Of a DNA stretch of 64,000 nt, positions 25,549 to 64,000 are shown one piece after another; position 1 is the first letter of the stretch; each line of letters starts with the position of its first letter. The translations under genes and the position numbers were made by a program. Source of the stretch: Antedon mediterranea (lineage: Eukaryota > Echinodermata > Crinoidea > Comatulida > Antedonidae); the NCBI RefSeq assembly GCF_964355755.1, contig NC_092675.1, positions 6,916,312-6,980,311 on the forward strand, in the 5' to 3' direction. The notes beneath the pieces are model-generated. The model was not told the origin of the DNA. It made no database searches and saw only the letters and a list, made by a program, of their open reading frames with translations.

Positions 25549-27160
25549 TGTGATAGGTCTAACCAAGCAATGTGCTGCTTAAATCTATAAATCTACTGCA
25601 CTTTCGCACTTACCTAATTTTCACCCACTGCTACTGCAGTTTTAGGTGCGAAAGTGCAGTAACGCCAAATTGGGTATGTCCGTGCTTAAACTATGTAAAT
25701 TTCAATCTGCAGGTAGGCCTACATCTAGGAAAATCATCGCACTGATCTTTTCACATAAGCAATTATGTACACATTTCAGATTTTTCTCTTTAGGCCTACA
25801 TTTCACTCTATTTATACAGTAATAAGTATAGGCAAGTAGGTATACTGTATGTATATATTCTTTGGTATAGATTCTTTGATAGGTTCTTTGTATAATAACG
25901 CTTGAGGTTGAGAAAACTTTTCAATTTGCCCGTTGAAGTGTATCGCATTCTTTTCAAATCCGTGATCCTTTTTTCTCTATCATGCGCTCAAACAATGGGG
26001 CAGTGAGTGTAAAGGATAAATATATATAATACAATAACTTATCCTTTCTCTTTTTGGCATCACAACCACTGCATTTATTCATATTAATATAAAATACTGT
26101 ATATTACATAACATATTTTGGGACACTCCTATTAAGGGGACAGTTTTTTTGGGTCCAGAAAGTGTCCCCTTAATAGGGGTTCTATTGTTCTAAATATCTA
26201 TTATTTTGTACCTTGCCACATTTGTGAGGTCTGTCGAGTCGTCATGCTACATTTTTTTTGTGCATTTCTCCCTTTTTTAAAATCAAAAGCGATGTGTAGG
26301 CCTAAACACCAAAGATCTCCGGCTATGGTAAAAACTCGACATGCATGATGTGTAAAACTCGACATACGCGATGCGTAACAACGCGACATGCCCGACGCGT
26401 AAAAACGCGACATTCCCGATGCGTAACAACAACGCGATATGCCCGATGTGTAACAAGGCCAACAGCCATAAGTCGCGTGCTCTCAGAAATAAAATGAACT
26501 TTCAAAAAGTAATGTACTTTAAAACTTTTCTGTACATCAAAACAGTTCAAAAAGTACAGAAAAACGCAAAGTGATACGCGACAGACCGACCGACCGACAT
26601 AGTTAAAACATGTCTGTACATCAAAACAGTTAAAAAAGTACAGAAAAGCGATAAAACGCAGTGATACCGGACCGACAGACAGACCGACATAGTGAACTAT
26701 AGAGTCGCGTCCACGCGAATAAAAACTCGACATGAACGATGTGTAAAAAGCTAATGGTGTAGGCCTAATAGTTTTAAATTTATAAAGCGCAAAATATAAA
26801 TAGTCTCTATGCGCTGTTTAGCACAAGTGTAAACATGAAAAAGTTGATGTAAAATAAACCAGGAAAAGGCATACAATCCGAATAAATTGACCAAGACAAA
26901 AGAAAAAAGTCCGAAAACGGCTATAGGCCTATAACAGTATAAGGATAATATAACTGTAAGATTTAATAAGAATTAACATATAACATGATGTTACCTGTTA
27001 TTTGTGTTTCGATTACCTGGAATTGTAAGGTGCCGGACTATCTACCATATTTTATTTCTTTTATTCTAATGTTTTTATATATTACAAATCAACTGTACCT
27101 TTTATTATTTTACACTTTTGTTTATCATTGGACAGAGATAGAGAAATTAATACCTAGTTT
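25549..27160. repeat. Intergenic repeats: palindrome and two tandem arrays
   Basis: 26117-26186 is an imperfect palindrome (GACACTCCTATTAAGGGGAC pairing with GTCCCCTTAATAGGGGTTCT), a fragment of a family also seen near 35.47-35.56 kb. 26332-26460 holds about five degenerate units of 20-23 bases of the form CGACATGCGCGATGCGTAAC. 26525-26710 is a two-unit duplication of about 95 bases built on TCTGTACATCAAAACAGTT, AAGTACAGAAAA and GACCGACCGACATAGT. No gene is seen. Confidence 0.6.
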
Positions 27161-29212: not shown

Positions 29213-29218
29213 TTTATT
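29213..29218 (-). terminator. Candidate poly(A) signal of the EGF/LamG gene
   Basis: TTTATT on the plus strand is AATAAA on the minus strand, about 190 bases after the TAA stop at 29408-29410. It is chosen because it is the first canonical hexamer downstream; use is not proven. Confidence 0.4.
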
Positions 29219-29407: not shown

Positions 29408-31820
29408 TTACGTCATACACAGGTATACACCTGCTCCATTGGTAGCATCTCCTTGTAAGTTCACTTGGTACAGAATGCCAGCAGGATTCAAAGAGGTTGA
29501 GAACTGTGCTATACACCCCACAAAACCAGATGTAAAATAACCTCCTGTGAGACTAGTTACATCACTACTATGACCACCTGAAAAATAACAAAGCAATTTC
29601 AGGCATGGCAAGGCCGAACACAGTTTTCACTTTTAGGCCTGTTTCTGCTGCAAAAAACATAACCGGTTAATAAACGTGTGACAAAATTAACCCTAATTTC
29701 TTTTGAGCAGAAACAGGACACATTTTCAATAACAGGTTAAATGGCAGTCTGAAAATAATGGTTAAAAACACGCAATCGATTCGGTGTTAGAACGCCATTT
29801 AACCGATTATTGCTGTTTAACTTTTAGCTGCAACGCAAAATAACAGTTATTTGATATACAGCCGCTGACCTTTGTCAACTACACTGCAGTAACGTTTGAA
29901 TTGACCGCCAGTGCCCATTGCATTTTAGGTACTGCGATTTCTGACGGTTATTTTGGAGCAAAAATTGAGCAGAAATGCCGTCGATACAAAAATTATATTT
30001 AAAATCTATTTTGACATAAACAGTTTATTCGGCAGCAGAAACACACCCTTAGTTAACAAACTAGGTCCTAGATGTAGTGCCTGAATAATAAATTATAATC
30101 TGTTTTTTGTTCATATCCAAAACAATGGAAAATTGCATGTTAGCGGGAGGCAGGAGAATGGTTCAAAATATCGGGGAACTCCTGCGATTATCGGGAGACT
30201 GTGACAGTACTTACCAACATACAGAAGACTTGTAAATGTGTTTAGTCCTGAATTACAACAAGGGCTGGAACCTGTTATGAGTTGATTACCACCGCTGGGG
30301 TTGGTTACGCTCATTGTCACAGTATTACCATTTCTAAAATAAAGACAGAATACCAAAAAATATACAACATGAGTTAATCAAAGATGCTTTACTCATGGAG
30401 AAATAAGTTAATAAGTTAGTTAAGTCCTAACTTATTTCTCCATGCTTTACTTAAAGGTAGGAAATTAAACCATGCATGAACTCACACCTATTTAAAAATT
30501 TGATATGCATACAATACCAAGAAACTCAATTGCAGGATGGATAAACTATTTACAACTAAGGATACATTCAGATTCACAGCATAAAGGTAGCATTATGTAA
30601 GTAGCATACATATTTCTGGGTCTGAACTAGGCTGTGAATTAGAGTTAGACAGCTGTTAGGCCTCTTTAGTGTCGTTAAATAACTATTTAATAACGTTAAT
30701 CCAGTGATGCCCCATAAAGTTACAGCTTCATTAAATGTGCTACAATGGAAGTATGAATCAAGATTATCAAGTTCTCTCATCTTGTAAGAAATTTGATGTT
30801 GATCATAGAGGTTCTGTTGAAAGTAGTCTAGCAGTTAGCAAGATGGATTGTCACAATAAATGTCACAGATTATTAAGCTCTTAACTTAAATTAAATATTC
30901 ATAAAATCTTTAATAACTTCACAGTTTAAGTTCCAGGATGTTGATGTATTAAATAAAATAAATTCTAAAAGCATTCAATATATAAATGAATGACTATCCA
31001 ATAAGCAGCCTACTCAGACACACAACTATGTCTGTGTTTTACGCACATAGAATGCATCAACGCAATACAAATACGGCAATACATGTAAACGTTTTGCCGT
31101 CTCACCAGACATAAGCTCCTTTGGATTTACTTTGTTTCTTCAAACAAACATGTGTGACTAAACTTATAGAAAAAACACCAACCTGTCTACATTTACATTG
31201 TAAAAGCCATTCTCAACAATCAAGTCTGTTGCCAACCTGCCGATGCCTGACCCAAGGTTAAAGGTGAACTCAATTCGACCTGATTTTATACCAAGAGCAA
31301 TAAAGTCATCTTCCATGTTTTCACCATTCCATAGTATTAAACTATCCACACTGGCATCGCGAGTATTAAACACTATAGCAAACCTATTGCTGTTAAAATC
31401 GCTGTTAAAAGAACAAAAAATACAAATAATTTATTTTATTTATCTATTTTATTTTATGTCTTTAGGCATGTGTGGCCAAGGATTACCAATAGTAAATCAT
31501 CAGATAAGTGGTATTTTTAAAATTTTTAACCAATAACTAAACAATACTAAACAATTTTATACTATTTTACAAATGTGTTTACATCATGTTGATATAAAGT
31601 TTGCGGTACAACACATATATTAGTTTTGAAAAGAATGTTGAGTTTCTCGACGTTTTGTTCAATATCTTTTGATCGTCCTCAGGAGAGAGATTGTCATTCT
31701 CACTCCTGAAGACGATCAAAAAATATACTGAGAAAAATATCAATTACCTTGCAATGATCTCACGTCCATACTGAAGATAGCTACGACCACTAAAATCAGC
31801 TATGTTGAATACATTTGGAC
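29408..31820 (-). CDS. LamG5 and C terminus (exons 34-37)
   Basis: Exons: 31748-31820, 31183-31401, 30215-30333 and 29408-29577. LamG features: [47 protein letters not shown] and [10 protein letters not shown]. The reading frame ends GVYLCMT-stop right after the domain. No GPI-like or transmembrane tail follows, so the product should be released into the matrix. Confidence 0.87.
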
Positions 31821-34800: not shown

Positions 34801-37800
34801 TTCTGCATTTACAGCTGTTCGTACAACTGTATTGAAATCCAGCAACGCTGCACAAATATTAACATTCGACGCAGAAGTAACAGATGTTGGAAAAGATTTT
34901 GATCATCGCTCGGGGTTATACATCTGTGACACACCAGGTGTTTACCACTTCACGTTTCATGCCATGCGACAGAGCAGCGCTGAGGACGTTTACGTAAAGC
35001 TTATGCACAATGGAAAATTAGTCGTCTCTGCTTTTAACGCTGATCAAGACGATCACTCGGATATTGCAAGTAACACGGCTATAATCGTACTGAGATTTGG
35101 CGATCGTGTATACTTGGAAGTTCCTGCTCATAATTCTGTATACAGTAACAGTCACAGACCAACAACTTTCAGTGGATTTCTTCTTATTCATGGTCGCAAC
35201 ATTAACTGATTATAAAGCCTTCAGATAGTATACATCATAAGCATGTGTTGCTTTTAAAGAATATACAATCTTTTTTATATCAATATATGATTAATATACA
35301 TATCAATGTTTAATCAGAAAATTCAATAACATGAAACAAATCACTTTTGCTTACCTTTATATCTGGTATTATAATTAGTACAGTATATTATATATTAAAT
35401 GCTAAATGAATCAATTATTGAAACTTAACTACTTTGAATTTGCTTTTGTAATTACAGTAGAAATCCTATTGAAGGGACACTTTGCCATGATACAAGAAGA
35501 AATGTATAAGTTAACACATGGCCAACTTCTATTAATGAGAAACTCCTATTAAGGGGCCACTTGGACTATGACAGCTGATTTCTAAAGTGGTCTATAATTA
35601 AAGATGTATTGTCCCCCAAAATCAGGAAAAATTAAGAATAAAATCCGACTTTAAATAGGCCATTTTGCATTTTTAATAAAGTTCACTTTTTTAGAAACAA
35701 AGCAAAAAATAAACGGTTCGTTTAAACCAAAAACTCATTGTCTGCCAGACAATTTAAGTGTTTTTTTGCTTTAAATTACATTTTTAAAGGTAAATAATTT
35801 TTTAGCGATCAAGTTTTTGGTCAAAATGAATAATTATTATGCAACGTTAAAATGACATATTCAACAACAAATTTTTTTAAAATAATTTTTTCAGTGGGAC
35901 AATATTTTATTTATTTTTTTATTTATAAACATATTTCTACTGGATGACAATATCAACGTTGTCCCACAAAGGGGACATTGTTGTTTTTCAAAAGGTCCAG
36001 CACAAAACCTAACAACATACTATAATTATATAATACATCGTTTCTTAAAAAAAGTAAAAAATGTTAATATATCTTTAAGAGGAGATAATTTTGAAATAAA
36101 AAAGAAAACTATTCTTACTTTGACCACATAGATCCCCGAAATAGTCAATTGTGCACAAGCATGAAGGTTGTCCATTCTCATTTACATAACAGGTGCCACC
36201 GTTCTGACATTGTTGACTACTTGCTAAGTTATCACATGCGCTTTGATCACATACGTCACCTAAGGATAAAAAGGCATCATTATAGTAAACATATAATCCT
36301 TAAGATTATGTTGAAAATGTTCACGGCCAATAAGATTAACTCAATTGTCCAGATTACCAAAGCTATACTCACACCTTTAACATCTGTGTAATTAGCCTGC
36401 TCAACGCGATCGATACCTCTCATCTTTACGATTTCAAATTAACCTTAATGATATTTTAATTATTTATAACAAATGAAGAATGCCATTATAACTGTTATAT
36501 CATATCATTAAACAAAGGTAAATAAAGTATAAAAATATGTACAGTGTCAACTAATGCATTATTTCATACCAAGATATCCCGGTAGACATTGACAGGTAAA
36601 TCCATTAGGAGCGTCTGTACAAGTAGCCCCATTTTGGCAGGGATCTTGAAGGTTACAGACACTGTCTAAACACTCTGATACATCTAAACCATCATCTGGA
36701 CTACTCAGATCAACATCTTGAATATTGATGTCAACTGTTCTAATGCAGCCAACAAAACCTGCCAAAACAAATTGATTACACACTTTTTTTATCTACATCC
36801 CACTCACATGTAATGCTCATAATTGCACGTTCAAGTATAAACACTCTCCCTAATTTAGGCTAAATTCAGATACAAAACCTGTTTTCTAAATTGTTAATAC
36901 AATTTAAGTTTAATCATATTCCAAAATCTTTCCCAAATTCATACCCAAGACCTATACTTAGTCAATATTATTAGTATTTATCAATAATGTACTAGTGTAT
37001 TAATATACAAATAATGAATGTCTAGATAATTTAAAAAATCAACAAACACTCAAAGCACTCTGATCTTTTCGAAATAATGCTATATAAATGTCTCATTATA
37101 AATTGAGGGCGTGATTGAGTGAAGACAGTGCTGATTTTTTGAGTAAATTTGCCTTTTTTTTTATGTATATAACATATATTTCACACATTTCTTTGTATGC
37201 TGTGTGGTTTACAAAATGAAAAGTAATATTTTCATGAGGCAAAAAAAAATAGTCTAAATAAAAATAATTATCAGGCCTAATGATATAAAGGTACATACCA
37301 CTATTGAACAGAATTTCTGTAGGCAGGCTTATAGTAGATGGAATACCACCTACAAATGTAATTACACCTGTGTCTAATCCCACACTTGACCCTTGTGTTG
37401 TACCAGTCACAGCAAAATCATCATTCAAACTTAAAGAGCCATCTTTTATGTTTCTGGAAGCCCTGACAATGTTCCATTCATTCAGCCTTACTACAGTAGA
37501 GCTAGTGAGGATCAAACTGCCTGTTGAAATTAATAAATAGTAACATTTAGATAGGGTTGTGAAGATAAAGTAGTTATAGCTACATTATTTTTTACTTTTT
37601 TACTTAGCTGAAATTTTCACTTACTTTTATTCCAAATCATAATTATTTTACCTAACAATTTTAAATCAAATGATAATAATAATAATATGAAAAGGAATGA
37701 ATGATTATTAGGCTTTAAAAAAACCAGTTCCTACAAATTCAGACTGTTTAATGCAGGATGGTTATTATGTTATCAATTTCATGTACAGTAGTTTGTGAAA

Positions 37801-40800
37801 AATGTAGGTAAAATATGTGAGACCTTTCAAGGTTTTTAAAGCCAATTTAAATTTAGTTGTGGCCTAAAAATATATTGGCAAGAATATGCAGCACTGGCCC
37901 AAGAATACACCATACTGGTACACAATTGTGTGTAATTATGGAATAAGTGAGTCAAATGACCAAGTGGTTAAGGCAGGGGCGCCGTTTACCGTACCCAAAG
38001 AGGCAACAATATCAGCACGAGTAGGGGTTACCTCGGTGAACTGGTTCACAAAATAGTCCCTGTATCGGGGGGATTACTACCTATGTGATAGGACAGTGAT
38101 TAATTTACTATTGGTAATCCTTGACCACATTTGCCTAAAGACATAATAAAATTAATGTAATTAATGAGTAATTATTTTCTACTACTATTCATACCTGATC
38201 CCAAGTTGAATGCGAACTGAACATTGCCATTTACTAAGCCAAGACCAATGAAATCATTGTTTTCACTGTTCCATAGAAGTAATCCATTATTGTCTTCAGG
38301 CTTAAACTCTATTGTTATCTCAGTGTTCGAAGACGTTACAAGTATGAAGTTGAAGGATAGGTATGATAATGCTGTAAATGATGGAACACTAATTGTGCTC
38401 ACTAAAAAAAAGAAGACAAAATAATTAAAATCAATTTTGAAATATTTACACATTTTTGTAGTTTAAATAATAATACAGAATTAATATTTGACATATTCTT
38501 TTATCAATAATGTTATACATCTATGATCTAATTACTCACAACAAAATAATGGCAGAATAAAAGCCTTACCCGTGTCACATGTTTGACCTGTCCACCCTGA
38601 GGTGCATATACATTCAAATTGTTGGTCACTGATAATACGGCATATTCCATTATTTAGACAGGTAGAGCTGGTACACGGTGAAAATGAGCAATAACTGATA
38701 TCTCTTCCACTCAATGCTGTTTCCCATGGCAATGGAAGGAATGTAGTTCCACCAATCTAAAATATGCAATATTGACTTTAATTTGACTGAATACTTATTG
38801 TACATCATCACTCACAAAATAAAAGTTAAAATTACAAACCTGAAGATCTTGGATACACCCAGAGAAGCCAGTAACGAATCCACCTTCCGGATGAAGTATT
38901 GTGAAGTCCTGAAGACCCCCAATGTATAGGCTGCTGTCTGCTGTTAAACTAACTGCTGTTCCTCCTGCCTGGATGGTATATCTTATGTTGTCTACATACA
39001 AATCAGCAGTACGTGCCATTCTTGTAACAGTAATTTGATGCCAACTATTTAAACTTATTATGGTACTGCTAACAATTGCTGTTGCTCCCCCTGGTAAAAT
39101 AAGAATGATATTCAAAGTAGAAATATGGCTGACATAGGAACTAGAAAAGCAGTAATTCATTATTATTTTATTTAAATTTAAAAGGATATATTGATTGATT
39201 GTATTGATTATTGTAGATAATAAAGGGAAAAAAGAAATTTGAAATGACTGTAAAAGTTAAAGAAAATCTATTTATTTATTTTTTATTTATATTTAAAAAA
39301 ATTTTAATCTGGTGGCCATGACTTAAAGTTTGTCCTCCTTCTGCACACATTTAACTGGAAATGTAAATCAGCACTTGTTCTTAACTGCAAACACAGGTTA
39401 TTTATATGTAGTATATGGATCAAAATGACAAAATTACTAACCCATTTTGTATCTAAATTGCACCATGCTATTTATGAGGCCAAGAGCAAAGAAATCACCA
39501 GCAGTGTTGAACTGATCTTCCATGTACAACAGGAGTCCAGAGCCAGATGTTGGCCTGATTAAAAGACTAATACGAGTTTCCTTATTCAGACCAACAGGGG
39601 AACCAAACGTGATAAAAGATGTTTCACTGAATTCTGGTATCAAGGATGTTAAATCTAATATATTGTGGATAAAAAATAATAATTTACATCAAAGAAATTA
39701 TTGTATATTATGGGAATAAAATATATAGTCTTCCAATACTAAACACCTATGGGCTGGCCAAATATGTCTGGATTTCCAGAAAGTTTGGTATTCAGAATGT
39801 GTTTTTAATGTTAAAAAAAGAATTTGGGACCTTTTGGACCTCACGAAAAGTCTATTATTGGGAGATTTTCGCGTTTCAGGGAGTCCTGTATTTGGAGAGT
39901 TGACTGTATAACATTTTAGATATGGAGTAGAAACTGTTATTAGCTCCAACTATGGGTTAGGATTGAACCCTGTACCTTGGGATTGGAAGCCAAGCTACAC
40001 CTCCACTACTACTTGATTATACCATTATTGTTAAGGGATGTTTCTTATTTAGAAATAAACTATAAATTTGTTATTGATGCATAGAACTCACCTAAGTTGT
40101 CTGAGCACGTCACACCAGTTTTCCCAAGAGGGCAGGAACATGTGAACGTGTTCCTACCAGAAATACACGTAGAGCCATCTGCACAATTATTGTTTGAACA
40201 AAAGTCTGTGCTGGACTCGCAATTTGTTCCTGTAAACCCAGGCTGGCAGTTGCAAATGTAGGAGCCAGGGATTGTTATACATGTAGCCTGGTTTAAGCAG
40301 GGCGTAGCCTGACAAAGGTCTTCATCACACTGGGCAATGTTAGCGCCGCTTATGTATCCACCAGAGGAGAAGCTAATAAACAATACAAACATATATTTAT
40401 ATAATGATTCAATAACTATGCATTGTTAGTTATAAACAAACACTTCATAATACTGATTGCAGGAATGACATCCACAGTATAAAACAGAATTCAGTGTCAG
40501 TCATCTGATTCTTGATAGAAACATAACATTCTCAATATGTGTTTTTATTTGGGGATATGTTGTATTTAGTCATTCAAAGTAACGATATTATAAAGATAGT
40601 AAGATTTATTTTCTTTTTTTGTCTTAAGCTCTGTCTACACCCACCAAACTGTACGTGACAAACAAAATGTGATGTGCCCATATATGGGCATGATGATGTC
40701 ACATCACTACCATGTTTGGACATGTCACTACCATACTTGGGCACATCACACTTTTTTGTCAAACTAGTTTGATAGTGATAGACAGAGCTTTATACCTGAT

Positions 40801-52800: not shown

Positions 52801-55800
52801 TGAGGGCAAACACACGTGTATCTGTTGACCAGATCAAGGCAAGTACCTAAAATAAAAACATAGATTTTAATTACACATTATAGTTAAGTTGTTAATACTA
52901 GAGGGTGAGCTCGCTCCCCCTCTAGGATGTGTAGACGATGGTTCTCGGAATGATAATGTTCTCCTTATACGTTTTCTGTCGGTTACCATTATTGAAAATG
53001 CTTGACATTCGTAAAACTAAACTACTTTGTTTCACAGTGTTTTAGATGATTATTAACATTTTAAAGTATAGTTTTTATTGTTTAGGGCCCTTTGGGGAGG
53101 CGGAGGTCATTTGAGGGAGGTGCTTATTCGAGGGATATATGTTAAATTTTTTAGTTTTAATAATATGGTAACATTTATAATCAAATGAAATCCTCTAATA
53201 GATATAAAAAGTGCTAAAAAAGAATAACAAATGCTTGGTAAATTGTAGATAACAGTGCGGTGAATTCTACTACAAATAGTATAATTTTGTTATTATAAAT
53301 ATGTGGATGGACGTTTATTAGATAGTTGGGTTGGGGGGGGGGGGGGAGGGGGGTTTATTATTCAAAGTGATGTTTTATTGGAGAGGCGTTTATTCAAATG
53401 AATACCATCCTAATAATTATTAATACATTATTTAATTTAATCGTCTTTTGAAACTGCCGTAACAGAGTGGGCCCAAGAAAGAAGACATTACGGCTTGCAA
53501 CATGGGCAGACATCTCGGTCCTAACGGGACACAGGAAGATAGCCTACAGTTATTCCTGCAAGCTTACTCAATAAAACTCAGCTATCGGGATTTCACTCGA
53601 AAAATGTCTTATCATCAAATCTCCCTATGTAATTTTATAATACTATTCCCCACAAATATTCTGATTCTTTATGACGTATATTTAATTTGATCTTTATTAA
53701 TTTGCAGTATAATTTAACTACTGTACCTTCACACACGCGTGGTATGTTTTAAAATAAACAAAAAACTGAAATGGCTATGACTAATGGCCAACCACTCCTA
53801 CTATCTGATTTTTTTTTCGTCTTCCAAAGGGACACTGTATTGATTGATGGAAAGTGCCTGTTTCCAGTCACCTTTAGGGTCAAATCTATTATTTTAACTG
53901 CTCCCTTGTGTTTAAAAGAGAGAAAATATTTGAAACTAAGGTTGTTGCAAGGTGAACTTATCTTAAACCCGGAAATTACTTTGACCGGGAAGAATTGAAA
54001 TTGAGAGGAAAATCTAATGTTGAAATCATAAATGTTGTTAAAAAACTCTTTATAATATCTTCCTAAGATATAAATATGGAACAATAGCGTCGGCGTGAAC
54101 ACTAATGTTATCAAATCTACGTTTCGCGGTACATCTCGGATAGATAAGGTAGGTATCCAAGGCGGAGATTTGTACCGAAGTTTTTGCATTGTGCTCGCCT
54201 ATGTCAGAATTAACCATAATTTATATATAGATGATGAGGCTATATTTATGCTTATTGGTAGTTTTGGTGGCAATATACATGATTTATCTGACATTATTAA
54301 AGTATATTCATTTATTTGATCTTATCAAGCGCCTTGAGCACCATTGGTGGTGAAGTGCGCTCTAGATATCTGTATTATTACAAACATTTAGGTGGATTCC
54401 ATGCTACTTCAAAGTTATCTTATCTTATTCTTTGGAACAAGTGTCCTGTTCTTGCTGTAGAACATTATTGCCTCTCATTTGCTTTTACCAAGCCAACAAT
54501 AAACTCAAATTGTATGATTTTCAGGGGCTAAGAACACTCGTAAAATACATGAAAATACTAAATACTCAAGGTACAGTACAGAATGATGATTATGATTACT
54601 ATTCATTTTTAAAAAACATACACAAATGTTATTGAGTAAAGCTAAAGAGACAGAATAAAAAATGTACCTGTGTTAAAGCAGGGGTTACTGGAGCACTCAT
54701 CTATTTCTATCTCACATTGTGTGCCTGTGAAACCACTTGCACATTCACAACGATACGCATTCAATTGTTCTACACAAACGGCGCCGTTACGACATGGACT
54801 ACTGCTACACTCTTGCGCTTCCGTTTCGCACCTATCACCAATATAACCGGGAGTACATGAACAGCGGTAACCGGCAACGATATCTTGACATGTTCCACCT
54901 CGTAAACAAGGGTTACTTAAACATTCATCTATTTCGTTACTGCAAATAGGTCCTTGATAACCCGCTGCACACTGGCATGTGAAAGCATCAAATAGATCTG
55001 TGCATGCTCCGCCATTTTGACACGGGTTAGATAAGCATTCGTTATATTCAGTTTGACATTGATCACCCTGATGTGAAGGAGGGCATGAACATGTAAACAT
55101 CGCAATTCCATCTGCGCAAGTTCCACCATTCAGACATGGAAAACTTGCACATTCATTTACATTGACGTCACAAAAGGTTCCAGAGAATCCATTAGGGCAT
55201 GTACATATGTAACCATTTATCTGATCCACACAAACAGCACTGTTACTGCATGGAGAACTGGCGCATTCATCAATGTTAAACTCGCATCTTGTTCCGATGA
55301 ACCCTGGTTGACAAGTACAGTCATAGCTACCTACTTGATCGTTACAAACTGCTCCATTAAGACAAGGACTAGAAAAAAATGTAATTCTCAAATATCGGTA
55401 CTCAGATTAGAAAACATGAATTCAACAACATTTATTTTATCAATGACTCAGTATAACTATAAACAAATAAAAAATAGATTTGATATAAAGAAACCATAAT
55501 AGGATCATTACTAGAAGACAAAAATCTTGTCACAGACTGTAAGACCCTTTTAGAGTAATGAATATTTACATTGTTGATTTACAGACTAAACAAATCCAAA
55601 TTTGATCAATAAAATCAATAAAACAAATAAAACAGAATAGTACTATAAATAATAATAGTTATTCATGAACACTTTAATACAATGATAGATAACATCTTTT
55701 TAATTTATTTCGAAAGGTAAAAACAAGTTAAACTTTTAATAGTGAAATCCAACTCGTTCCAGAGTCTGGGACCTGAAACGGAAATAGAAAATTGCAAACT

Positions 55801-58800
55801 TCTAAGTCTTCTAAATGGAATATTTAACGGGAAGTTACACTGCATGCTACGAAGTTTATAATTATGATAATGTATGACATTATTAAATAAATTAATTATA
55901 GAAGTAGGAATATTATTGTGAATATATTCAAAAATAAAAGAGGCCACTTGGCATTTATGTATGTCCAATAAATGTAGCAACTTTGTTGAAAAGTTCTTTG
56001 AATAAATAGGAAGTTCATTTTATTAACAGGAAACAGGGACAATATTAAAAATAATTTATATTAAGACAGTTACTGAAAATTATCTTTAAATGTTGTGCAA
56101 TTAAGAATTTTTAAATTTCACCTATTTCATAAAATTTGAAGAAATGAACACCAAAATAATCAACTAAACATATTTACACACATTTCAGTAGTTGAATTGT
56201 GATCAATGTGAATTAATATTAGTTAAAACAATAAAAATTTACTTGATAATTTAGAGGTTTATTCGGTTACTTACCTACTTGAACATTCAAAGAGTTCTGA
56301 GCCGCATGTGGTTCCTACATAACCAATTGGACAAACACATGAATAGCTATTTGCTTGGTCAACACAGGTAGCACCATTTTCGCAAGGGGAACTATCACAC
56401 TCGTTTAAATCCAGATCACAATCCACACCCACGGTTCCAGAAACACATACACACTGATAACCTTGAAATTGGTCAATGCATTGTGCATTGTTTTGACATG
56501 GGTTTGGGTCACACTGGTTGTCGTCCGTCTCGCAATTTGTACCTATCCAATCACCGGTGCATTCACAAGTGTACCCTCCAAGTAGATTTCGGCAATTTCC
56601 TAGGAATCAAGAAAAGAATTAAACTTATTGTCAGCTAAATAAAATTTCACACTTTTAATATCTTTTACATAAAGTTGAAATAATTTCACTAAGTTAACAA
56701 TAATCTTAATTGTTACCAATTTTAAAATAAAGTTACTTGGGTGAAAATGCACGCTCTCAAGCAAGTTACTAACTAAGTATTTATTCTTCAGGTCTTCAGG
56801 AAAATGTGGGTTGTGGAAAATGAATTCAGCTTACCTCCGTTCTGGCAAGGAAAACTTTCACATTCGTCAATGACATCCTGCGCGCAGTTTGTACCTGCGT
56901 ACCCAATGGGACATTCGCAACGGTACGCTTTCACAAGATCTACACACGTTCCACCAAACTGACATGGATCGCTAAGACACTGATCACCATCACTTTCACA
57001 ATTACTTCCACTGAATCCAGACTGGCACCGGCAGCGGTAGGCATTTAATAGATCTTCACAGAATCCTAGATTACAAAGAAAAAGTTTAGTCTAACTATAA
57101 GTTATAAAGCAATATGGTAAATAATATCGTATCAGCATTTGTAGCATAGGTTTTAAAACTGCCTGTGCTCTATTTATAAGCAAGATACTTTCATCTTATC
57201 GCCTCGTTTTTTGGATAGGATGTAAATCTGTTGGTCACATGTACAATACATTGCACATGGTAAAGAACTTGTATACAGTACTATTCAGAAAGAACAAGGA
57301 AATGTCTCTCGGTGTACTCATCATGGTTCTGGGGTCTCTAAGAGAAGTGTCTTATACTGAAGACATCAAACAAGTATATAAATCAAATAAATAGAGACAA
57401 GAAATGGGCCACAGAATAATTTTTTTTTAAACATTAAGAGTGACATATGACCAAAATGTTTGAAAAAAACTCCTCACCTCCATTAAAACATGGATTGCTA
57501 GAACATTCATCAATGTCAGTTTCACATCGGGTTCCTGTGTATCCAAGAATACAGGAACAAACGAAGTAATTCACGGCATCAACACATGTTCCTCCATTGA
57601 TACAAGGATTCGATGCGCATTCATCTGTCTCAGTTTGGCAAAAACTCCCTTCATATCCCGACTGGCAAGCACAGGTAAATGAGTCGATGCCGTCCACACA
57701 TTGTCCAAAGTTTTGACAGGGTTGGTTTATGCAGTTATCTATATTTGTCTCACAATTAAAGCCTGTAGTGAAGTAAAGAATTAATTGTAAATTGCTAGAA
57801 ATCTGCAAAAGTCAGTTTCATTTAATAAATATAACTGTGTATGATATATTATCCTAATCATTAGTTGAAAAATACATCTGTTTTAAAAAAGATACTATGG
57901 TAATTCCGAAAAATCACAACCATAAACCATCATTGATTCTATGCTTTTACATCATAAATTTGGTATATGTGCCTAGGATTGCCAGTATCAAATGTAATCA
58001 CTCCACTCAAGGGGGACAACCAGAAAAAATAGACTAGATTCTCTGTACCTATAAATACCAAGTCTTTGGGAGTGGAGTCTTGACAGGACCTGAACCAAGG
58101 AACCACAAAGCTACAACTCCACTCCATTAACATATGCATCTGAATAATCACCTGTAAACCCCAAGATACACTGACATGTATACTGATTAAACAAGTCAAC
58201 ACAAGTAGCTCCGTTTTGGCAGGGGTTACTGGCGCACTCCTCTGATTCGCTCTCGCATTGAGAACCAAAATAACCAGGAACACAGTAACAGAAATATGAA
58301 CCAAATCGGTCTTCACATGTAGCTCCATTTCTGCATGGGAAACTCAAACACTCATTTATTTCAGTCTCACAATGTGTACCTTAAAGTAAATACAAACAAT
58401 TGTAACAATTATACCATCACAGCATTATACACAAATTCTGTAATCGTGTTGCATATTGAACACTTTTGTATTGATGTTGTGGGCATTTATGATTTTGAAA
58501 AAGAATTTAAAATAAAGGTAGAACTGTTTATTATGTCTATGTAAAATATTAGCAATACAGCAAATATTATTATAATTATGTATGTATATATTCTACATTA
58601 AATTAATATAATGAATCATGTTATTTAAATGAAATGCATGCATGATAAAAACAAATCCCAAGAAATATTAGTAGCATTTTCAATTCATGCAAAATAAAAC
58701 AATTTGAAAATAAAACATTTCAGAACCTGTAAGAAATCAATTGAATAAATATTGAAATAATTAAGTAAAGTAACAAAAATAACTAACATATTTATTCAAA

Positions 58801-61800
58801 TAAATGCCCTGGGTTGTTTGTTTAGAGAGGTTTTAAGGAGGTGTAATCGAGGAAGGCTTTTATTTGAGTCAGAATTTAGTTTCTCTTTCAAATAAACTAC
58901 TGTACAATTAATAATAAGAAGTGCTTGTATCAATATTCTTTGTAAATTCTGCAGTCAATATAAAGGTAAAGGTATTTATATTTGTCCTCAAGCTTAACTG
59001 GAAACTTAGGAAATTCGGATTAGGCCCTCCACGAACCCACGGCAGCCAGCAGTGCAGCGCCTACCAGATCAGCACACCGGGAGACGATCCCCTACTCTTT
59101 TTCGAATAGTGTACCAAGTTCTTTAACGTGCACTGTTAAATACACGGGACCAACGGCTTTACATCCCATCCGAAGGATGAGGCAATGAGAGTAAAGCATC
59201 TTGCCTAAGGATACAATTAGTATGGTACAGATAACCATTACCATTACACCATCACTCTCCAGTATATACAGCACCCATCGCGATTTCTAGACGGTAAAGG
59301 TATTTATATTTGTCCTCAAGCTTAACTGGAAACTTAGGAAATTCGGATTAGGCCCTCCACGAACCCACGGCAGCCAGCAGTGCAGCGCCTACCAGATCAG
59401 CACACCGGGAGACGATCCCCTACTCTTTTTCGAATAGTGTACCAAGTTCTTTAACGTGCACTGTTAAATACACGGGACCAACGGCTTTACATCCCATCCG
59501 AAGGATGAGGCAATGAGAGTAAAGCATCTTGCCTAAGGATACAATTAGTATGGTACAGATAACCATTACCATTACACCATCACTCTCCAGTATATACAGC
59601 ACCCATCGCGATTTCTAGACGGTCTCCCATCCAGAACGCAACCGGGCCCAACGTTGCTTAACTTCGGTGATCTGACGAGAACCGGTGTTTCAACGCAGTA
59701 TGGCCGTATTAAAAACAAATAGAACAAATAGAAATACAGTATTGTGTGAATATACAAGCGAAAAATGGGGCGGAATTTGAGGAGAAATTTTATTTGAAAA
59801 GAGCTCTCCATGGGTGGGGGGAGGTGGGTGTCTATATTTGAATAAATATACATCATTTTCTAAGAACATTTAATCTAAAATCATTACAAAATAGGGAAAA
59901 GTTTTTACCTGTAAATCCCATAGCACAATTGCATTCGTACCGATTAATAAGATCAATACATTCGCCTTGGTTGAGGCACGGCCCGCTACCGCATTCAGGA
60001 TAATCTAGGTCACAGTTTATGCTATAGTAACCGTCGGCACAATTACAAACGTAACCGTTGAACCTATCAGAGCAGATTGCACCGTTCAAACATGGACCAC
60101 TGGCGCATTCATCTAATTCCTGTTCGCACAAACGCCCAGTGAATCCATCAGAGCATTCACACAAATATGCATTCAAAAAATCTAGACATTGTCCGCCATT
60201 TCGACATGGGTTACTTTCACACTCGTTAATTATTATTTCGCAGTGAATACCTTCAAATCCTGGAATACATGTGCAAGAATAGCCATTAACTAGATCATTA
60301 CAAATTGCACCATTATTACACGGATTGTCTTCACAATCGTTGACATCAATTTCACAGTTATCACCCTGATAACCAATTAAGCATGAACATATATAACCAT
60401 TTTGTCCATCTAAACATCCCGCGCCGTTTAGACATGGATTTGAGAGACATTCATTGATGTTAATTTCACAGATAGTACCAGAGAATCCTTGTGGACATAT
60501 GCAAGTGTATCCACCAATGTCTTCAGTACAAATAGCTTGATTTAAACATGGGTCACTGTCACATTCTTGAATTTCTGTTTGACAGTTTACACCAGTAAAA
60601 CCATTTGCGCAAACACAGACATACCGATTTGATTCGTCAGTACAAACACCTCCGTTTGAACATGGACTGCTAGCGCATTCATTAATATTGTTCGCACAAT
60701 TATCCCCGGAAAATCCTGAAGGGCAATCACATGTATAGCCGTTTATTTGATCTGTACATGGTGCATTAACGCATGGTGATGATGAGCATTCATTGATGTT
60801 GGTTTGGCAACCAGTTCCGTCAAAGCCTGGAGGACATTGGCAAACATAATAACCGACAAAATCAATGCATGTTGCTTGGTTTCTACAAGGATTACTTTCA
60901 CATTCGTTTAACTCAACTTCACATAGTGTGCCACCAAAACCAAGACTACAGCTACAAGTGAAGCTGTTAATATCATCATTACATGTTGCTGGACTTAGGC
61001 ATGGGCTACTACTACATTCATCAATATCAATCTCACAATGAGTTCCTGTGAAACCAATGATGCAAAGGCACCGGTATCCACCTTGTTGATCTATACATGT
61101 CGCACCATTCTGGCAGGGAGAGCTTCCACATTCAATGATTTCAGTTTCACAATTGTTTCCGAAAAATCCTGTTGTGCAAACACAGATATAACTTTCAGTG
61201 CTCTGAAAACATGTGCCACCATTCCTACAAGGACTGCTGTTGCATTCATCTATGTCAACTTCGCAATTCTGTCCACTGTAACCAACCGCACAGACGCATG
61301 TATAACCACCAGGCTCGTTATTACACGTAGCTCCATTCTGACATAAATTAATTTCGCATTCATCCTGATCGACTTCACATCGTACACCACTAAACCCAGT
61401 AGGGCATGCACAAGAGTAACTGTTTACAGAATCTATACAGTCACCATTATTTAAACATGGTGTGCTCAGACATTCATCTGTATTGATCTCACATAGAGTT
61501 CCTTGAAATCCTGGTTGACACACACATTGAAATAAGTTGATGTTATTCTGACAAATAGCATTATTAAAGCATGGTTGACTGTCACATTCATTGATATCAA
61601 CTTCGCATAAATTTCCCACAAAGCCATCCAAACAAATACAATTGAATCCATTAAGTTCATCAAAACAAAATCCAGTATTGAGACATGGTGAACTTGAACA
61701 TTCGTCAATTTCAACCTCACATCGTGCACCTTGAAATCCAGGCCTACATATGCACTGGTAGCCATTCAGCTCATCAACACACTGAGCGCCATTGCGACAT

Positions 61801-64000
61801 GGGTTACTGCCGCACTCACGAATCTCCTCTTCACAATGTGAGCCTTGATACCCGGCAACACATAGACACACATATCCATTCACTTGGTCGTCGCAAGTAC
61901 CTGCATTCTGACACGGAAAACTTGAACATTCGTCAATATCTATTTCGCAGTTCGTCCCTGAATACCCATCGTTACACACACACAGGTAAGAATTAATATT
62001 GTCAACACATACTGCATTGTTTGAACATGGATTACATGTGCATTCATTTGTTTCTAATTCACAATGGGTGCCATAGAAACCAGACGGGCATGAGCAGGTG
62101 TACCCAGCTATACGGTCATTACATGTAGCACCGTTTTGACATGGCTGACTGTTACATTCGATAATATTTTCATTACAAGTAACTCCTACAAAACCTTCTG
62201 TGCAATTACATTCAAATGCATTTATCAGATCTAAACATTCAGCTCCATTACGACATGGCTGGTTGGCACATTCGTTGACCTCTGTATCGCACAAAATCCC
62301 TTCAAAACCAGCAGGACACAGACATGAGAATGCATCAATACCATCAATACACGTAGCATTGTTCTGGCAAGGTAAATCAGCACATTCATTAATTTCAATT
62401 TCACACATATTTCCAAGAAAACCTGCTATGCAATTACATTCGAAACCGTTTAATAAATCAATGCAGGTTCCTAAATTGAAACAAGGAGAACTCTGACACT
62501 CGTTAACATCGGTTTCACAGAAGTCTCCAACATATCCTGGTGTACAAATACAGACAAACCGATTGACTTCTTCTGCACAGGTGGCTCCATTCTGACATGG
62601 GTTACTCTGACACTCAAGAATCTCCAGTTCACACAATGTGCTATAAAATCCTTGACGGCATTGACATCTGTAACCACGGACTTCATCAACACACGTAGCC
62701 CCATTAAAACATGGAACGCTTGTACATTCGTCTACATCTACTTCACAAGTATTTCCTTCAAAACCAGACAAACAGTAACAGTTGTAACCATTTAGTAGGT
62801 TTTCACATACACCATCGTTTTTACATGGATCGCTCAAGCATTCATTTATGTCTTGCTGACAGTTATTCTCGCCATAACCAGGAATGCAAAGACATGTGTA
62901 ACCATTGACACCATCGATACATGTGCCACCATTTCTGCATGGACTGCTAAAGCATTCATCAATGTCACTTTCACAATGTGAACCGGCATAACCTGGCAGA
63001 CACACACATATATAAGAATTTACATTATCAATACATTGAGCTGAATTAAGACATGGTTGACTTTCACATTCATTTATTTGTATTTGACAATTTACTCCGG
63101 TATAACCATCAGGACAGATGCAAGAATATCTGTTGATTTCATCCACACAAAGGCCATTTACACAAGGATTACTACTGCACTCTTGAACCTGTACTTCACA
63201 GTTACTTCCTGATACACCATCAACACATGTGCAGACATACATATTAATCTGATCTTCACAAATTCCTCCATTCTGGCATGGCTGACTTCCACACTCATCT
63301 ATATTCTGTTCGCATCGTGTTCCTTGGTAACCAGACACACAGTTGCATATATACATGTTTACAAGATCTTCGCAAGTTGCACCATTAACGCAAGGACTAC
63401 TTGAACACTCATTGATATTAGCCTCACACAGTGTACCAGTAAAGCCACCAAGACAGTCACAAGCAAAAGCATTGTTAAGTTCTTGACAGTTTGCTCCATT
63501 TCTGCACGGATTACTACCACACTCTAAAGTCTCAGCTTCACAGTTTGTCCCCAAGAACCCAGTAAGACACTGACATGTATATCCAGCTTGCCGGTCAGTA
63601 CATTGACCTCCATTTTGGCAAGGACCGCTGTTACATTCATCTACTTCTAATGAGCAGGTCACACCTATAAAACCAGGATTACATAAGCAAACAAATTCAC
63701 CAATGGCATTTATACAGGCAGCATCATTTGTACATGGGTTGCTTTGACATTCATTGATGTCAACTTCGCACCTACTGCCCTCATAGCCTAGAACACATTG
63801 GCACAAGTAACCACCCATCTGGTCAAGACAAAAAGCACCATTAATGCAAGGGCTACTGTTACACTCATTGATCTCAAATTCGCAGTTGACTCCTTGATAA
63901 CCTTCTGTACATGAGCAAAAGTATCGGTCGACGTAGTCTTCACATTGTGCATTATTCTGGCATGGATTGCTCCCGCATTCATCAATCTCAATGTCACAGT
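29408..64000 (-). CDS. Giant secreted EGF/laminin-G protein, EYS (Eyes shut)-like, 3' 37 exons
   Basis: Thirty-seven exons were traced; all junctions have GT..AG and their phases sum to one continuous frame of 4,108 residues plus stop, entering from beyond 64000 and ending at TAA 29408-29410. Order: about 77 EGF-like domains, then LamG1-EGF2-LamG2-EGF2-LamG3-EGF1-LamG4-EGF2-LamG5. The C terminus (AGVYLCMT) follows LamG5 directly, with no transmembrane or cytoplasmic part, which argues against Crumbs, Notch and Fat. The five alternating LamG domains at the end are the layout of Eyes shut/EYS, a secreted matrix protein of photoreceptors. Human EYS has about 28 EGFs, so the EGF part is strongly expanded here. 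Most EGFs carry calcium-binding (D/N)-x-(D/N)-E-C starts. Orthology to EYS is inferred from architecture only; another EGF/LamG matrix protein is possible. Confidence 0.75.
30394..30444. repeat. Hairpin repeat CATGGAGAAATAAGTTA / TAACTTATTTCTCCATG
   Basis: Perfect 17-base arms at 30394-30410 and 30428-30444 within intron 35. A related hairpin is at 28087-28123 and a single arm at 20927-20943 (AACTTATTTCTCCATGG). The recurrence suggests a tiny mobile palindrome. Confidence 0.6.
31441..31505 (-). mobile_element. tRNA-type SINE, 3' tail only
   Basis: On the minus strand this reads TTTACTATTGGTAATCCTTG, then CCACACATGCCTAAAGACAT and an A/T-rich tail. It matches the 3' part of the fuller copy at 37957-38168. 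Confidence 0.55.
31590..31745. mobile_element. Inverted-repeat element (GTTTGCGGTAC / CTGAAGACGATCAA family)
   Basis: Contains ATAAAGTTTGCGGTACAACA, GAGTTTCTCGACGTTTTGTT and a small hairpin ATCGTCCTCAGGAG...CTCCTGAAGACGATC. Words are shared with 16.38-16.61 kb and 49.02-49.31 kb. No ORF. Confidence 0.5.
32047..32541. mobile_element. TA-flanked MITE, about 495 bases
   Basis: Left GGGAGGTTTCGCAATCTTAT and right complement (ATAAGGTTGCCAAACCTCCC-type) form inverted repeats that extend through the GAATACGAAAACG / CGTTTTCG and ATACGTCAC / GTGACGTAT words. Both ends are flanked by TA (32045-32046, 32542-32543), as in Tc1/mariner-type elements. Non-coding. It lies upstream of the nested C1q gene. 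Confidence 0.65.
33000..33050 (+). promoter_or_regulatory. Possible 5' UTR exon end of the C1q gene
   Basis: AATAAG|GTAAGT at 33050-33051 is a consensus donor on the plus strand, and the coding exon at 34342 follows an acceptor TCTCCTTTCAG. A non-coding first exon ending at 33050 with a 1.3-kb intron is the simplest reading. The exon's 5' boundary and the promoter are not determined. Confidence 0.4.
34343..35209 (+). CDS. Secreted collagen-C1q domain protein, nested gene
   Basis: A single coding exon of 288 residues. ATG follows a splice acceptor (34331-34341) by one base. Residues 1-18 are a signal peptide ([18 protein letters not shown]). Residues 32-48 are a D/N-P alternation. C52 and C56 precede an uninterrupted collagen stretch of about 24 Gly-X-Y triplets (59-130). 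A GEGGGG hinge follows, then a C1q/TNF-like head (about 150-288) with [10 protein letters not shown] at its start, GVYHFTFHA in the middle and FSGFLLIHG at the end. C1q-like proteins trimerise through these parts and bind microbial or self ligands; many act in invertebrate immunity or matrix. The gene lies on the opposite strand inside intron 33 of the EYS-like gene. Confidence 0.88.
35598..35905. mobile_element. Second MITE copy, TTAAAGATGTATTGTCCCCC family
   Basis: The left terminus is identical to the 24192 copy. The right terminus is degraded (GTGGGACAATATT). Internal words (AACAATTTTTGTTGAAT-like) match the first copy in inverted orientation. It sits downstream of the C1q stop codon. Confidence 0.6.
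36119..38401 (-). CDS. LamG4 plus two EGFs (exons 30-33)
   Basis: Exons: 38195-38401, 37299-37520, 36570-36758 and 36119-36259. LamG features: [30 protein letters not shown] and [12 protein letters not shown]. EGFs: [18 protein letters not shown]... and CDQSACDNL...[17 protein letters not shown]. The last exon ends CGQ plus one base before GTAAGA, and the following intron (31821-36118, 4.3 kb) contains the nested C1q gene. Confidence 0.87.
37957..38168 (+). mobile_element. tRNA-Ser/Leu-like SINE
   Basis: TGACCAAGTGGTTAAGGC (37957-37974) is an A-box of tRNA-Ser/Leu type. The body continues to ATTGGTAATCCTTGACCACA and GCCTAAAGACATAATAAA near 38150, ending about 25 bases from the donor of exon 30. 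The same 3' part occurs inverted at 31441-31505. Confidence 0.55.
38570..39654 (-). CDS. LamG3 plus one EGF (exons 27-29)
   Basis: Exons: 39442-39654, 38840-39090 and 38570-38756. LamG features: [40 protein letters not shown] and [10 protein letters not shown] single EGF follows ([17 protein letters not shown]...CDT). Donors are GTTAGT, GTTTGT and GTAAGG; all acceptors are AG with pyrimidine-rich lead-ins. Confidence 0.87.
39956..40011 (-). repeat. tRNA-like sequence
   Basis: On the minus strand GGAGGTGTAGCTTGG is followed by GGGTTCAATCC, resembling A and B boxes of a tRNA, but no acceptor stem closes. It is probably the head of a SINE within an intron. Confidence 0.35.
40092..42277 (-). CDS. 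LamG2 plus two EGFs (exons 23-26)
   Basis: Exons: 42062-42277, 41671-41779, 41070-41234 and 40092-40372. LamG features: [40 protein letters not shown] and [13 protein letters not shown]. Exon 26 completes LamG2 ([10 protein letters not shown]) and holds two EGFs. A 67-base duplicate of the 3' part of exon 24 with an intact donor lies in the next intron (41530-41597). Introns also hold MITE copies at 40.6 and 42.4 kb. Confidence 0.85.
40626..40791. mobile_element. Palindromic MITE (AAGCTCTGTCTACAC family), copy 1
   Basis: AAGCTCTGTCTACAC at the left pairs with the AGACAGAGCTTT right end. The centre contains GCCCATATATGGGC and both arms carry complementary CACATCACA / TGTGATGTG words. Related copies are at 42447-42562 and 48193-48340, all within introns of the EYS-like gene. 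Confidence 0.7.
41530..41597 (-). pseudogene. Tandem-duplicated partial exon 24 (decoy exon)
   Basis: This stretch repeats the last 22 codons of exon 24 ([20 protein letters not shown] against [20 protein letters not shown]) plus its donor GTTAGT. It is part of a 141-153 base tandem duplication (about 41447-41598 and 41600-41738). The 5' part of the exon and its acceptor were not copied, so it is probably not spliced in. A cryptic TTAG just upstream cannot be excluded. Confidence 0.75.
42447..42562. mobile_element. Palindromic MITE, copy 2 (right end degraded)
   Basis: TAAAGCTCTGCCTACACTAT with internal ATGTGATGATGTCATATCAC and GCACATCACACTTTTT. The right terminus is no longer recognisable. 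Confidence 0.6.
42583..42795 (+). mobile_element. SINE copy with tRNA-like head
   Basis: A-box-like TGTGTAATGGTAAGGC (42583-42598), B-box-like GGGTTGAGACC (42610-42620), then the shared body AGACAAGATGCTTTATTCTC and GTCCTTCGGATGGGATGTAA. Box spacing is tRNA-like. It has no 5S head, unlike the copies at 21.5 and 59.6 kb. Confidence 0.65.
42879..44318 (-). CDS. LamG1 plus two EGFs (exons 19-22)
   Basis: Exons: 44172-44318, 43769-44016, 43383-43565 and 42879-43047. LamG hallmarks are [32 protein letters not shown] and DGCVQDLQL. Two EGFs follow ([12 protein letters not shown]..., [12 protein letters not shown]...). Donors are GTAATG, GTAAGT, GTAGAG and GTATGT. The third is unusual at +5 context, but the frame continues correctly through it. 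Confidence 0.85.
44498..44562 (-). repeat. tRNA-Arg-like pseudogene or SINE head
   Basis: The minus strand begins GCCCCAGTGGTCTAATGGAT, nearly the 5' half of tRNA-Arg(CCT), and has a B-box-like CCAGGTTTGAATC. The anticodon arm is altered and the 3' acceptor strand is absent (a TA repeat follows), so it is not a functional tRNA. Confidence 0.55.
44642..44810 (-). CDS. EGF exon 18, just before LamG1
   Basis: 169 bases from CTTTTAG to GTATGC, phase 0 to 1. It gives the end of one EGF ([17 protein letters not shown]) and a complete EGF ([13 protein letters not shown]...[10 protein letters not shown]). The intron that follows (44319-44641) carries a tRNA-like sequence and a (TA)n tract. Confidence 0.82.
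45309..48738 (-). CDS. EGF exons 11-17 of the EYS-like gene
   Basis: Exons: 48532-48738, 48004-48122, 47730-47860, 47204-47439, 46522-46618, 45820-46076 and 45309-45469. All junctions agree in phase (1/1, 1/0, 0/2, 2/1, 1/2, 2/1, 1/0). The domains are more diverged than in the giant exon, with few calcium-binding starts. Exon 16 ends FSCNYCAS| and exon 17 begins NPCLNGAGC, so one EGF there appears to lack its C-terminal half. The last EGF of exon 17 has [10 protein letters not shown]. Confidence 0.82.
45674..45777. repeat. Long near-perfect hairpin
   Basis: Arms 45674-45716 and 45736-45777 (AAATATAAGATTTGACATCC, then GGGAATGATATTTTGCTC, with their complements) differ at only one or two positions around a loop of about 20 bases. 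It is in the intron between exons 16 and 17, 43 bases from the exon 16 donor. Confidence 0.75.
48193..48340. mobile_element. Palindromic MITE, copy 3 (degenerate)
   Basis: ATATCTACACTATCAAATTT, TGTGACAAAATGTGATG and GCCCATATATGGACATGATG match copies 1 and 2. The right end is poorly conserved. Confidence 0.5.
49020..49310. mobile_element. Inverted-repeat element fragments
   Basis: Contains CATATTGATCGAAA twice (49035, 49209), AAACATCGAGAAACAGTTCT and GGTGGAACGCAAACTTTATA, matching words at 16.4-16.6 and 31.6-31.7 kb. It lies between exons 10 and 11. Confidence 0.45.
49366..50293 (-). CDS. EGF exon 10: CDSxPC-type EGF cluster
   Basis: 928 bases, phase 0 in, phase 1 out (donor GTAAGA). The first EGF has an enlarged loop with extra cysteines ([19 protein letters not shown]). 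After one calcium-type EGF come several compact repeats beginning (Q/T/L/M)PCDSxPC(V/L)NGxC with only two or three residues between cysteines 2 and 3. These lack the D-x-D/N-E calcium-binding start seen in the rest of the protein, so the segment should be more flexible. Confidence 0.88.
50577..52846 (-). CDS. EGF exons 7-9 of the EYS-like gene
   Basis: Exons are 52559-52846, 51691-51981 and 50577-50650. Exon 8 includes an EGF with a longer loop ([13 protein letters not shown]) and ends in a weak donor GTAATT. Exon 9 is only 74 bases and supplies the second half of a domain ([13 protein letters not shown]), ending in phase 0. The intron at 50651-51690 carries the repeat element at 50806-51405. 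Confidence 0.85.
50806..51405. mobile_element. Non-autonomous element with CCTCCGCC...GGCGGAGG ends, tandem core and tRNA-like part
   Basis: Starts ACCTCCGCCAAGGAGG and ends GTAGGCGGAGGTTTGTACTC ... ACCCTCTAGTT. A unit of about 135 bases is repeated inside (CCACAGTTTTTATCCGATTC at about 50897 and 51033; AGGTCAAGGTCA and GATCAAGGTC after each). 51178-51250 is tRNA-like on the minus strand (A-box GTGGTGTAATGGTTATG, B-box GGTTCAAGTCCC). An A-run of about 20 precedes it. No ORF. Confidence 0.55.
52860..54660. other. Intron between EGF exons 6 and 7
   Basis: 1.8 kb without exon. It contains a G-run (about 53333-53352) and an unclassified segment (about 53450-54560) with ORF-like openings on both strands but no recognisable domain. 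It is probably an old repeat. Confidence 0.4.
54668..55368 (-). CDS. EGF exon 6 of the EYS-like gene
   Basis: 701 bases between TTTTTTTCTAG and GTACAT, entering in phase 2 and leaving in phase 1. It encodes the end of one EGF (SPCLNGAVC) and then five complete ones and the start of another (SSNPCFNTG|). Sequence such as [16 protein letters not shown] is close to Notch/fibropellin-type repeats. The donor (GTACAT) is weaker than average. Confidence 0.85.
55705..55980 (-). mobile_element. LINE ORF2 C-terminal fragment
   Basis: The minus frame reads [29 protein letters not shown] and [14 protein letters not shown], matching the typical C-terminal region of non-LTR retrotransposon ORF2 (IF-x-Y...P...HxYxTRx...GPxLWN). 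It lies in the intron between exons 5 and 6. Confidence 0.6.
56275..58379 (-). CDS. EGF exons 2-5 of the EYS-like gene
   Basis: Exons are 58152-58379 (two EGFs, [11 protein letters not shown] start), 57478-57762, 56835-57065 and 56275-56599. Phases are 1/1, 1/1, 1/1 and 1/2. Introns 3, 4 and 5 cut within domains ([25 protein letters not shown]), so exon borders are not tied to domain borders. Donors are GTGATT, GTGAGG, GTAAGC and GTAAGT. The segment holds about nine EGFs, mostly calcium-binding type. The intron at 57066-57477 contains an old SINE-body fragment (57165-57345). Confidence 0.85.
57165..57345 (+). mobile_element. Diverged SINE body fragment
   Basis: AAGCAAGATACTTTCATCTT, GGATAGGATGTAAATCTGTT and TCTCTCGGTGTACTCATCAT align with the SINE body at 21.8 kb. 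Neither the 5S nor the tRNA-like head is recognisable. Confidence 0.5.
58965..59620 (-). repeat. Identical 328-base tandem duplication of a SINE body
   Basis: 58965-59292 and 59293-59620 look identical base for base. Each is a complete copy of the SINE body on the minus strand, from a TATACTGGAGAGTGATGG part through CTTTACTCTCATTGCCTCAT to CTTGAGGACAAATATAAATA. Only the right copy is joined to a 5S head (59621-59712). Confidence 0.8.
59621..59712 (-). mobile_element. 5S rRNA-derived SINE head
   Basis: On the minus strand: ACGGCCATACTGCG, TCGTCAGATCACCGAAGTTA, AGCAACGTTGGGCCCGG and GGATGGGAGACCGTC, clearly 5S rRNA-like, passing directly into the body at 59620. It keeps the TCAGATCACCGAAG stretch missing from the copy at 21.5 kb. 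Not a functional 5S gene, since the 3' end of 5S is replaced by SINE sequence. Confidence 0.75.
59909..64000 (-). CDS. Exon with 36 consecutive EGF domains (5'-most visible exon)
   Basis: The frame is open from the window edge (64000) to ACAG|GTAAAA at 59909-59908, at least 4,092 bases without intron. It contains 36 EGF-like domains of about 38 residues with the pattern (D/E)xxEC-x-S-x-PC-x-NGxxC...C-x-C-x(8)-C. Most have the O-glucose consensus C-x-S-x-P-C and many the O-fucose consensus C-x4-(S/T)-C. The eighteenth ([14 protein letters not shown]) has an extra cysteine; the eighth and twenty-ninth have shortened first loops (CVNGLC, CVNAPC). It ends in phase 1 inside the last domain (GFTG|), completed by the next exon. 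All other exons of the gene are below 1 kb. Confidence 0.9.

Follow-up and report, generated by a model that had tools for sequence, protein, structure and literature searches.

The window, by which we mean the whole 64,000-nucleotide stretch of DNA analysed, carries on its minus strand what we consider, with a probability of roughly two in three, to be the gene of a secreted extracellular matrix protein resembling EYS (Eyes shut/spacemaker), in which the array of EGF modules is enlarged; the family is assigned by architecture. The domains, their order and the lack of a membrane anchor in the gene model were computed directly. We infer secretion, the N terminus lying beyond position 64000, as well as glycan binding and a spacer role. 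The finding is a real and large gene of EYS-like build, which specialists would probably class as a longer version of a protein type already known.

The window is A+T-rich (G+C from 0.29 to 0.40 in 4-kb steps) and contains introns and animal-type domains. EGF-like reading frames are confined to the minus strand, with 16 open frames there and none on the plus strand. Across 29408-64000, an EGF-like pattern matched 38 times inside single frames of both strands, whereas each of 50 dinucleotide shuffles gave 0 matches and the remaining part of the window (1-29407) likewise gave 0; for these reasons the EGF observation is real. The edited gene model consists of 37 exons with 12,327 nt and 4,108 amino acids, and runs in frame on the minus strand from 63998, where its 5' end is open at the window edge, to its only stop, the terminal one at 29408-29410. 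Of its 36 introns, 23 are in phase 1, seven in phase 2 and six in phase 0. The exon chain goes back to a dynamic programme for splice sites, whose codon model had the window's own EGF frames as its training set; the output of this programme (43 exons, stop at 29410) was afterwards edited by hand. Seven exons were dropped, one LamG1 exon was added and one LamG3 exon was recut by eye (coordinates in Table 1). The dropped exons, all discarded as senseless, were two located inside a repeat element (58965-59623), one antisense to a collagen/C1q gene, one before LamG1, two in LamG4 and one before LamG5. The GT-AG sites and the frame were imposed by the programme and are thus not independent evidence for the joins between exons, which are supported by EGF cysteine patterns and LamG strands running on across the junctions.

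The part of the protein before LamG1 includes 76 complete EGF modules and one truncated module, and together with the seven EGFs of the tail the total is 84, of which 83 are complete. On the spliced model the EGF pattern has 83 matches, 76 of them before LamG1, two of these 76 spanning three modules (one truncated and two complete) by reading of the list. At the window edge the first exon is open, and the cysteine with which it starts fits the end of another EGF, so that further EGFs probably lie beyond. For 10 of the 18 exons before LamG1, Pfam was run, and the families above cut-off were EGF types, FXa_inhibition, which we take to be an EGF-like family, and DUF5978 (35.8 against a cut-off of 25 bits), a match inside the giant EGF exon that was taken for an overlap with the EGFs. 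The truncated module, at approximately amino acids 2805-2828 in exon 46076-45820 (-), has its last two cysteines absent at the exon end, which could reflect a small exon that was missed, a deletion or a wrongly chosen donor. Motifs in the model include 57 O-glucose motifs (CxSx[PA]C), 32 of the O-fucose type (C2-x4-[ST]-C3) and 40 calcium-EGF-like patterns, and no low-complexity stretch was found before LamG1. Among the standard-length EGF units of the giant exon, nucleotide identity averages 0.55 and peaks at 0.68 (0.41 at third positions), with little trend with distance. The units are thus saturated, and any EGF expansion is old; the array either is old or has diverged past recognition.

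In the tail, the order of domains is LamG1, two EGFs, LamG2, two EGFs, LamG3, one EGF, LamG4, two EGFs and LamG5, giving a spacing of 2-2-1-2 (Table 1). Five stretches each were matched by the Pfam families PF00054 (Laminin_G_1, E 2.4e-98) and PF02210, with EGF families between them. NCBIfam gave no match on the first 324 of the 1,170 tail residues, nor did a viral contig collection searched with the LamG tail as six 8-residue patterns, an approach sensitive to close relatives only. The middle LamG2 exon is partly duplicated in the following intron (41509-41597 vs 41650-41738, 97% over 89 bases); the copy is without the first part of the exon and may be a dead or an alternative exon.

Table 1 Features of the gene model and its 3' side in the window.
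Feature	Position	Strand	Basis and remarks
Giant exon, open at window edge, 36 EGF modules without intron (36th completed by next exon)	59909..63998	-	Pfam PF00008, E 1.2e-221, 33 stretches
17 further exons, remaining EGF modules up to LamG1	44642..58379	-	Spliced model; Pfam EGF on 9 of the 17 exons
LamG1; exons 44318-44172, 44016-43769 and start of 43565-43383, in which the next EGF begins	43383..44318	-	Model, Pfam; first exon added by hand
Rest of first EGF and second EGF between LamG1 and LamG2	42879..43047	-	Model, Pfam
LamG2; exons 42277-42062, 41779-41671, 41234-41070	41070..42277	-	Model, Pfam
LamG2 end and two EGFs	40092..40372	-	Model, Pfam
LamG3; exons 39654-39442 (recut by hand), 39090-38840	38840..39654	-	Model, Pfam
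LamG3 end and one EGF	38570..38756	-	Model, Pfam
LamG4; exons 38401-38195, 37520-37299	37299..38401	-	Model, Pfam
LamG4 end and two EGFs; exons 36758-36570, 36259-36119	36119..36758	-	Model, Pfam
LamG5; exons 31820-31748, 31401-31183, 30333-30215, 29577-29408; stop 29408-29410	29408..31820	-	Model, Pfam
AATAAA, possible polyadenylation signal, about 190 bases after the stop	29213..29218	-	One of at least 14 A[AT]TAAA hexamers down to 25500; weak alone

The protein ends two residues past the last cysteine of LamG5, and the model contains no transmembrane segment, with no 19-residue window above a hydropathy of 1.51. These results agree with the initial annotation, which had described at least 84 EGF domains with about 77 of them ahead of LamG1, five LamG domains alternating with EGFs, and a C terminus without a membrane anchor; its suggestion of more EGFs past the window is probably correct as well. 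In the unedited run, a path to 29034 scored 1573.1 against 1573.7 for the path to 29410, and among the best 12 paths the ends other than 29410 trail by 0.6 to 4.4 units. The stop at 29408-29410 was chosen because LamG5 is complete there, not because of the path score. A membrane exon past 29408, which had been named as evidence against an EYS-type protein, is absent from the model, yet there is a donor-like site at 29431, and six hydrophobic frames occur past the stop, between 26500 and 29407. A+T-rich DNA often contains hydrophobic frames, which say little either way here, and alternative 3' exons past 29408 are conceivable, as the end is that of a computed model.

The window also includes several other elements. 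A repeat element (58965-59711, -) located in the intron that follows the giant EGF exon combines a head derived from 5S rRNA (Rfam 5S_rRNA, 69.7 bits, 59591-59711) with a body formed by a perfect 328-base tandem duplication. It is probably a 5S-derived SINE, a reading based on the occurrence of related pieces elsewhere in the window (21548-21891 and 42626-42708). A collagen and C1q gene in a single frame (34319-35209, +; PF00386, E 4.7e-30, and PF01391) is nested, antisense to the gene model, within the 4.3-kb intron that precedes LamG5. Outside the gene model, three very similar tandem frames (7896-8987, 12103-13224 and 14030-15115, all -) were found, of which 14030-15115, the frame searched against Pfam, matches galactose-3-O-sulfotransferase (PF06990, E 5.4e-68). 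The repeat families within and near these three copies share 89-96% identity. Frame 23396-24031 (-) matches Sulfotransfer_1 weakly (3.3e-05, 23.9 vs 22 bits), and frame 24976-25578 (-) looks by eye like the start of a sulfotransferase, with no match in Pfam. Repeats derived from 5S, C1q genes and sulfotransferases are all present in several animal groups, and the deuterostome placement offered in the initial annotation gained no support from the analysis.

According to published accounts, human EYS has 21 EGFs followed by five LamG domains with more EGFs (PMC3003713; PMC5112921), or 27 EGFs overall in another account, leaving six for the tail (PMC6063403), and its residues 1862-3165 comprise five LG and seven EGF domains (PMC7210881). 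Zebrafish EYS combines 39 EGFs with five LamG domains (PMC5155541; PMC6063403), the agrin/perlecan-related fly Eys also has five LamG domains (PMC12167501), and an eyes shut-annotated family has been noted in tardigrades and arthropods (PMC5531438). EYS ranks among the genes frequently involved in retinitis pigmentosa, and mouse, rat and guinea pig either lack it or have it in interrupted form (PMC8127272). Among the matches listed in the open-access literature for EYS in animals other than vertebrates and flies, none described, by title or abstract opening, an EYS with more than 39 EGFs.

The protein in the window resembles EYS in having a long EGF array followed by five LamG domains with EGFs between them, in ending at LamG5, and in carrying O-glucose motifs in its EGFs and an Asp at the likely calcium site of LamG. 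By counts, its tail of five LamG and seven EGF domains is that of the human construct, the 2-2-1-2 spacing not being part of this match. It differs from EYS in the number of EGFs, at least 84 (83 complete) where zebrafish has 39 and human 27, or 21 plus 7, in the location of 36 EGFs in one exon, and in having no low-complexity stretch before LamG1, a stretch described for human and fly and lacking in zebrafish. The fit to EYS proposed initially holds for the composition of the tail and for the C terminus of the model; orthology by sequence gained no support from the LamG tree described below. Of the proposed lineage-specific expansion, the excess of EGFs over human and zebrafish EYS stands. 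A limitation to one lineage would be a further assumption, and the saturated units point to an old array.

The tree was built from 14 domains, namely LamG1-5 and nine domains of agrin, perlecan, neurexin and laminin, and 0 of its 11 inner branches passed the support threshold, the five window domains not being united. The best-supported branch with a window domain joined LamG4 to neurexin LNS2 (83/83), not LamG4 to its siblings. A grouping of the LamG domains with another family, which had been put forward as evidence against EYS, was hence not seen in the comparison with agrin, perlecan, neurexin and laminin, in a tree without supported branches. Because the tree gives no such branch and holds no EYS, Crumbs or Fat, orthology with EYS is argued from architecture. 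When the whole tail was searched against solved structures, the best matches were neurexin-1 and agrin, with neurexin-1 at the top, and for single domains the first match was agrin for LamG2, 3 and 5 and neurexin-1 for LamG1 and 4. All five window LamG domains have an Asp at the presumed calcium site, a position equated with D2767/D3028 of human EYS from spacing and motif. These two human residues are reported to match the calcium Asp of laminin alpha-2, D2807 (PMC7210881). As a mark of the EYS family the conserved Asp was dropped, as it is present in 14 of the 14 domains compared, those of agrin, perlecan, neurexin and laminin included.

A rather unlikely alternative is that the gene is no EYS orthologue and represents a separate, agrin/perlecan-related EGF-LamG family, whose EYS-type tail was inherited, like that of EYS, from an older LamG-EGF unit or else arose by convergence. 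This would be in line with the failure of the tree to join the five domains and with identities to perlecan and agrin (0.35 between LamG5 and perlecan LG3 over the compared segment, 0.34 between LamG4 and agrin LG1) that are about as high as those among the five window domains (up to 0.34). Agrin shares the alternation of LamG and EGF at the C terminus, with matches to its LG1 and LG2 with flanking EGFs. Searched singly, LamG2 and LamG3 have agrin LG1 and LG2 as their best matches, and the EGF spacing of 2-1 across LamG2-3-4 is agrin-like, so LamG2-4 could correspond to agrin LG1-3. However, the highest score of agrin LG1 is that with LamG4 (80.0 bits), which agrin LG3 also matches, and by sequence the agrin matches therefore appear mixed and not cleanly colinear. 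Agrin also has three LG domains, in contrast to the five LamG domains found by Pfam here. The upstream part of agrin has Kazal/follistatin and SEA domains; neither Kazal nor any other agrin-type family was found in the tail and 10 of the 18 upstream exons, though the N-terminal part of the protein, beyond the window edge, may carry them. Perlecan and pikachurin are similar in their LamG domains, pikachurin matching LamG5, but Ig and FN3 domains, which are part of the make-up of these two proteins, were absent from the same tail and exons. Furthermore, EYS itself is agrin/perlecan-related, and such likenesses do not tell the two readings apart, while the tail of five LG and seven EGF domains equals the published human EYS composition. 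We know of no other family with a tail of this composition.

It is very unlikely that the model merely fused two neighbouring genes, one for an EGF-repeat protein upstream and one for a LamG-EGF protein downstream. In favour of such a fusion, the joins were computed and hand-edited, one EGF module is truncated and the intron before LamG5 contains another gene, but cysteine patterns cross the junctions in one frame, which is partly imposed by the method, and there is one terminal stop. Least probable, if only slightly less so, is a transmembrane protein of the Crumbs, Fat, CELSR or neurexin type with a missed membrane exon. Crumbs too combines many EGFs with LamG domains and O-glucose sites, neurexin-1 is the top structural match of the tail, and the donor-like site, the hydrophobic frames and the closely scoring rival path ends would leave room for such an exon. 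Against this, there are five LamG domains with the last one closing the protein, the EGF pattern is absent from 1-29407, and Pfam found no cadherin family in the tail or 10 of the 18 upstream exons. Crumbs is a transmembrane protein, and the model, without a membrane segment, would disfavour this identity.

For the preferred EYS-like protein, an anchored spacer with a longer rod would be the likeliest mechanism, which is proposed because of the functions of fly Eys and human EYS together with the O-glucose motifs, calcium-EGF motifs and LamG Asp found here. Fly Eys is described as a secreted glycoprotein with five O-glucose sites, which keeps rhabdomeres separate and opens up the space between them; O-glucose on its EGFs aids its folding and stability (PMC4238978). 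Fly Eys also steers the deposition of laminin and perlecan (PMC12167501), and a human EYS fragment with all five LG domains binds matriglycan (PMC7210881). By analogy, the long EGF rod, partly stiffened by calcium and rich in O-glucose motifs, would serve as a spacer, and the five C-terminal LamG domains with their calcium-site Asp may attach, at the cell surface, to matriglycan or other glycans or to laminin-type matrix. The protein could in this way hold apical membranes apart or anchor matrix around sensory cells.

By the length per module, the EGF rod would measure about 200 nm or more if extended. A more far-reaching idea, which we regard as doubtful, is that the protein is a lineage-specific giant of the EYS/agrin/perlecan group, belonging to an invertebrate phylum without a described EYS, and that its rod of well over 80 EGFs spaces a matrix or lumen in a setting other than the known one of photoreceptors. 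How the length and the glycans of EYS act is unsettled. In this regard, a relative that has an EYS-type tail and two to three times as many EGFs would point to a constrained tail composition and a freely varying rod length. Such a relative would, once placed in a phylum, help to date the EYS tail, and would allow one to test whether the number of EGFs sets the width of the matrix space.
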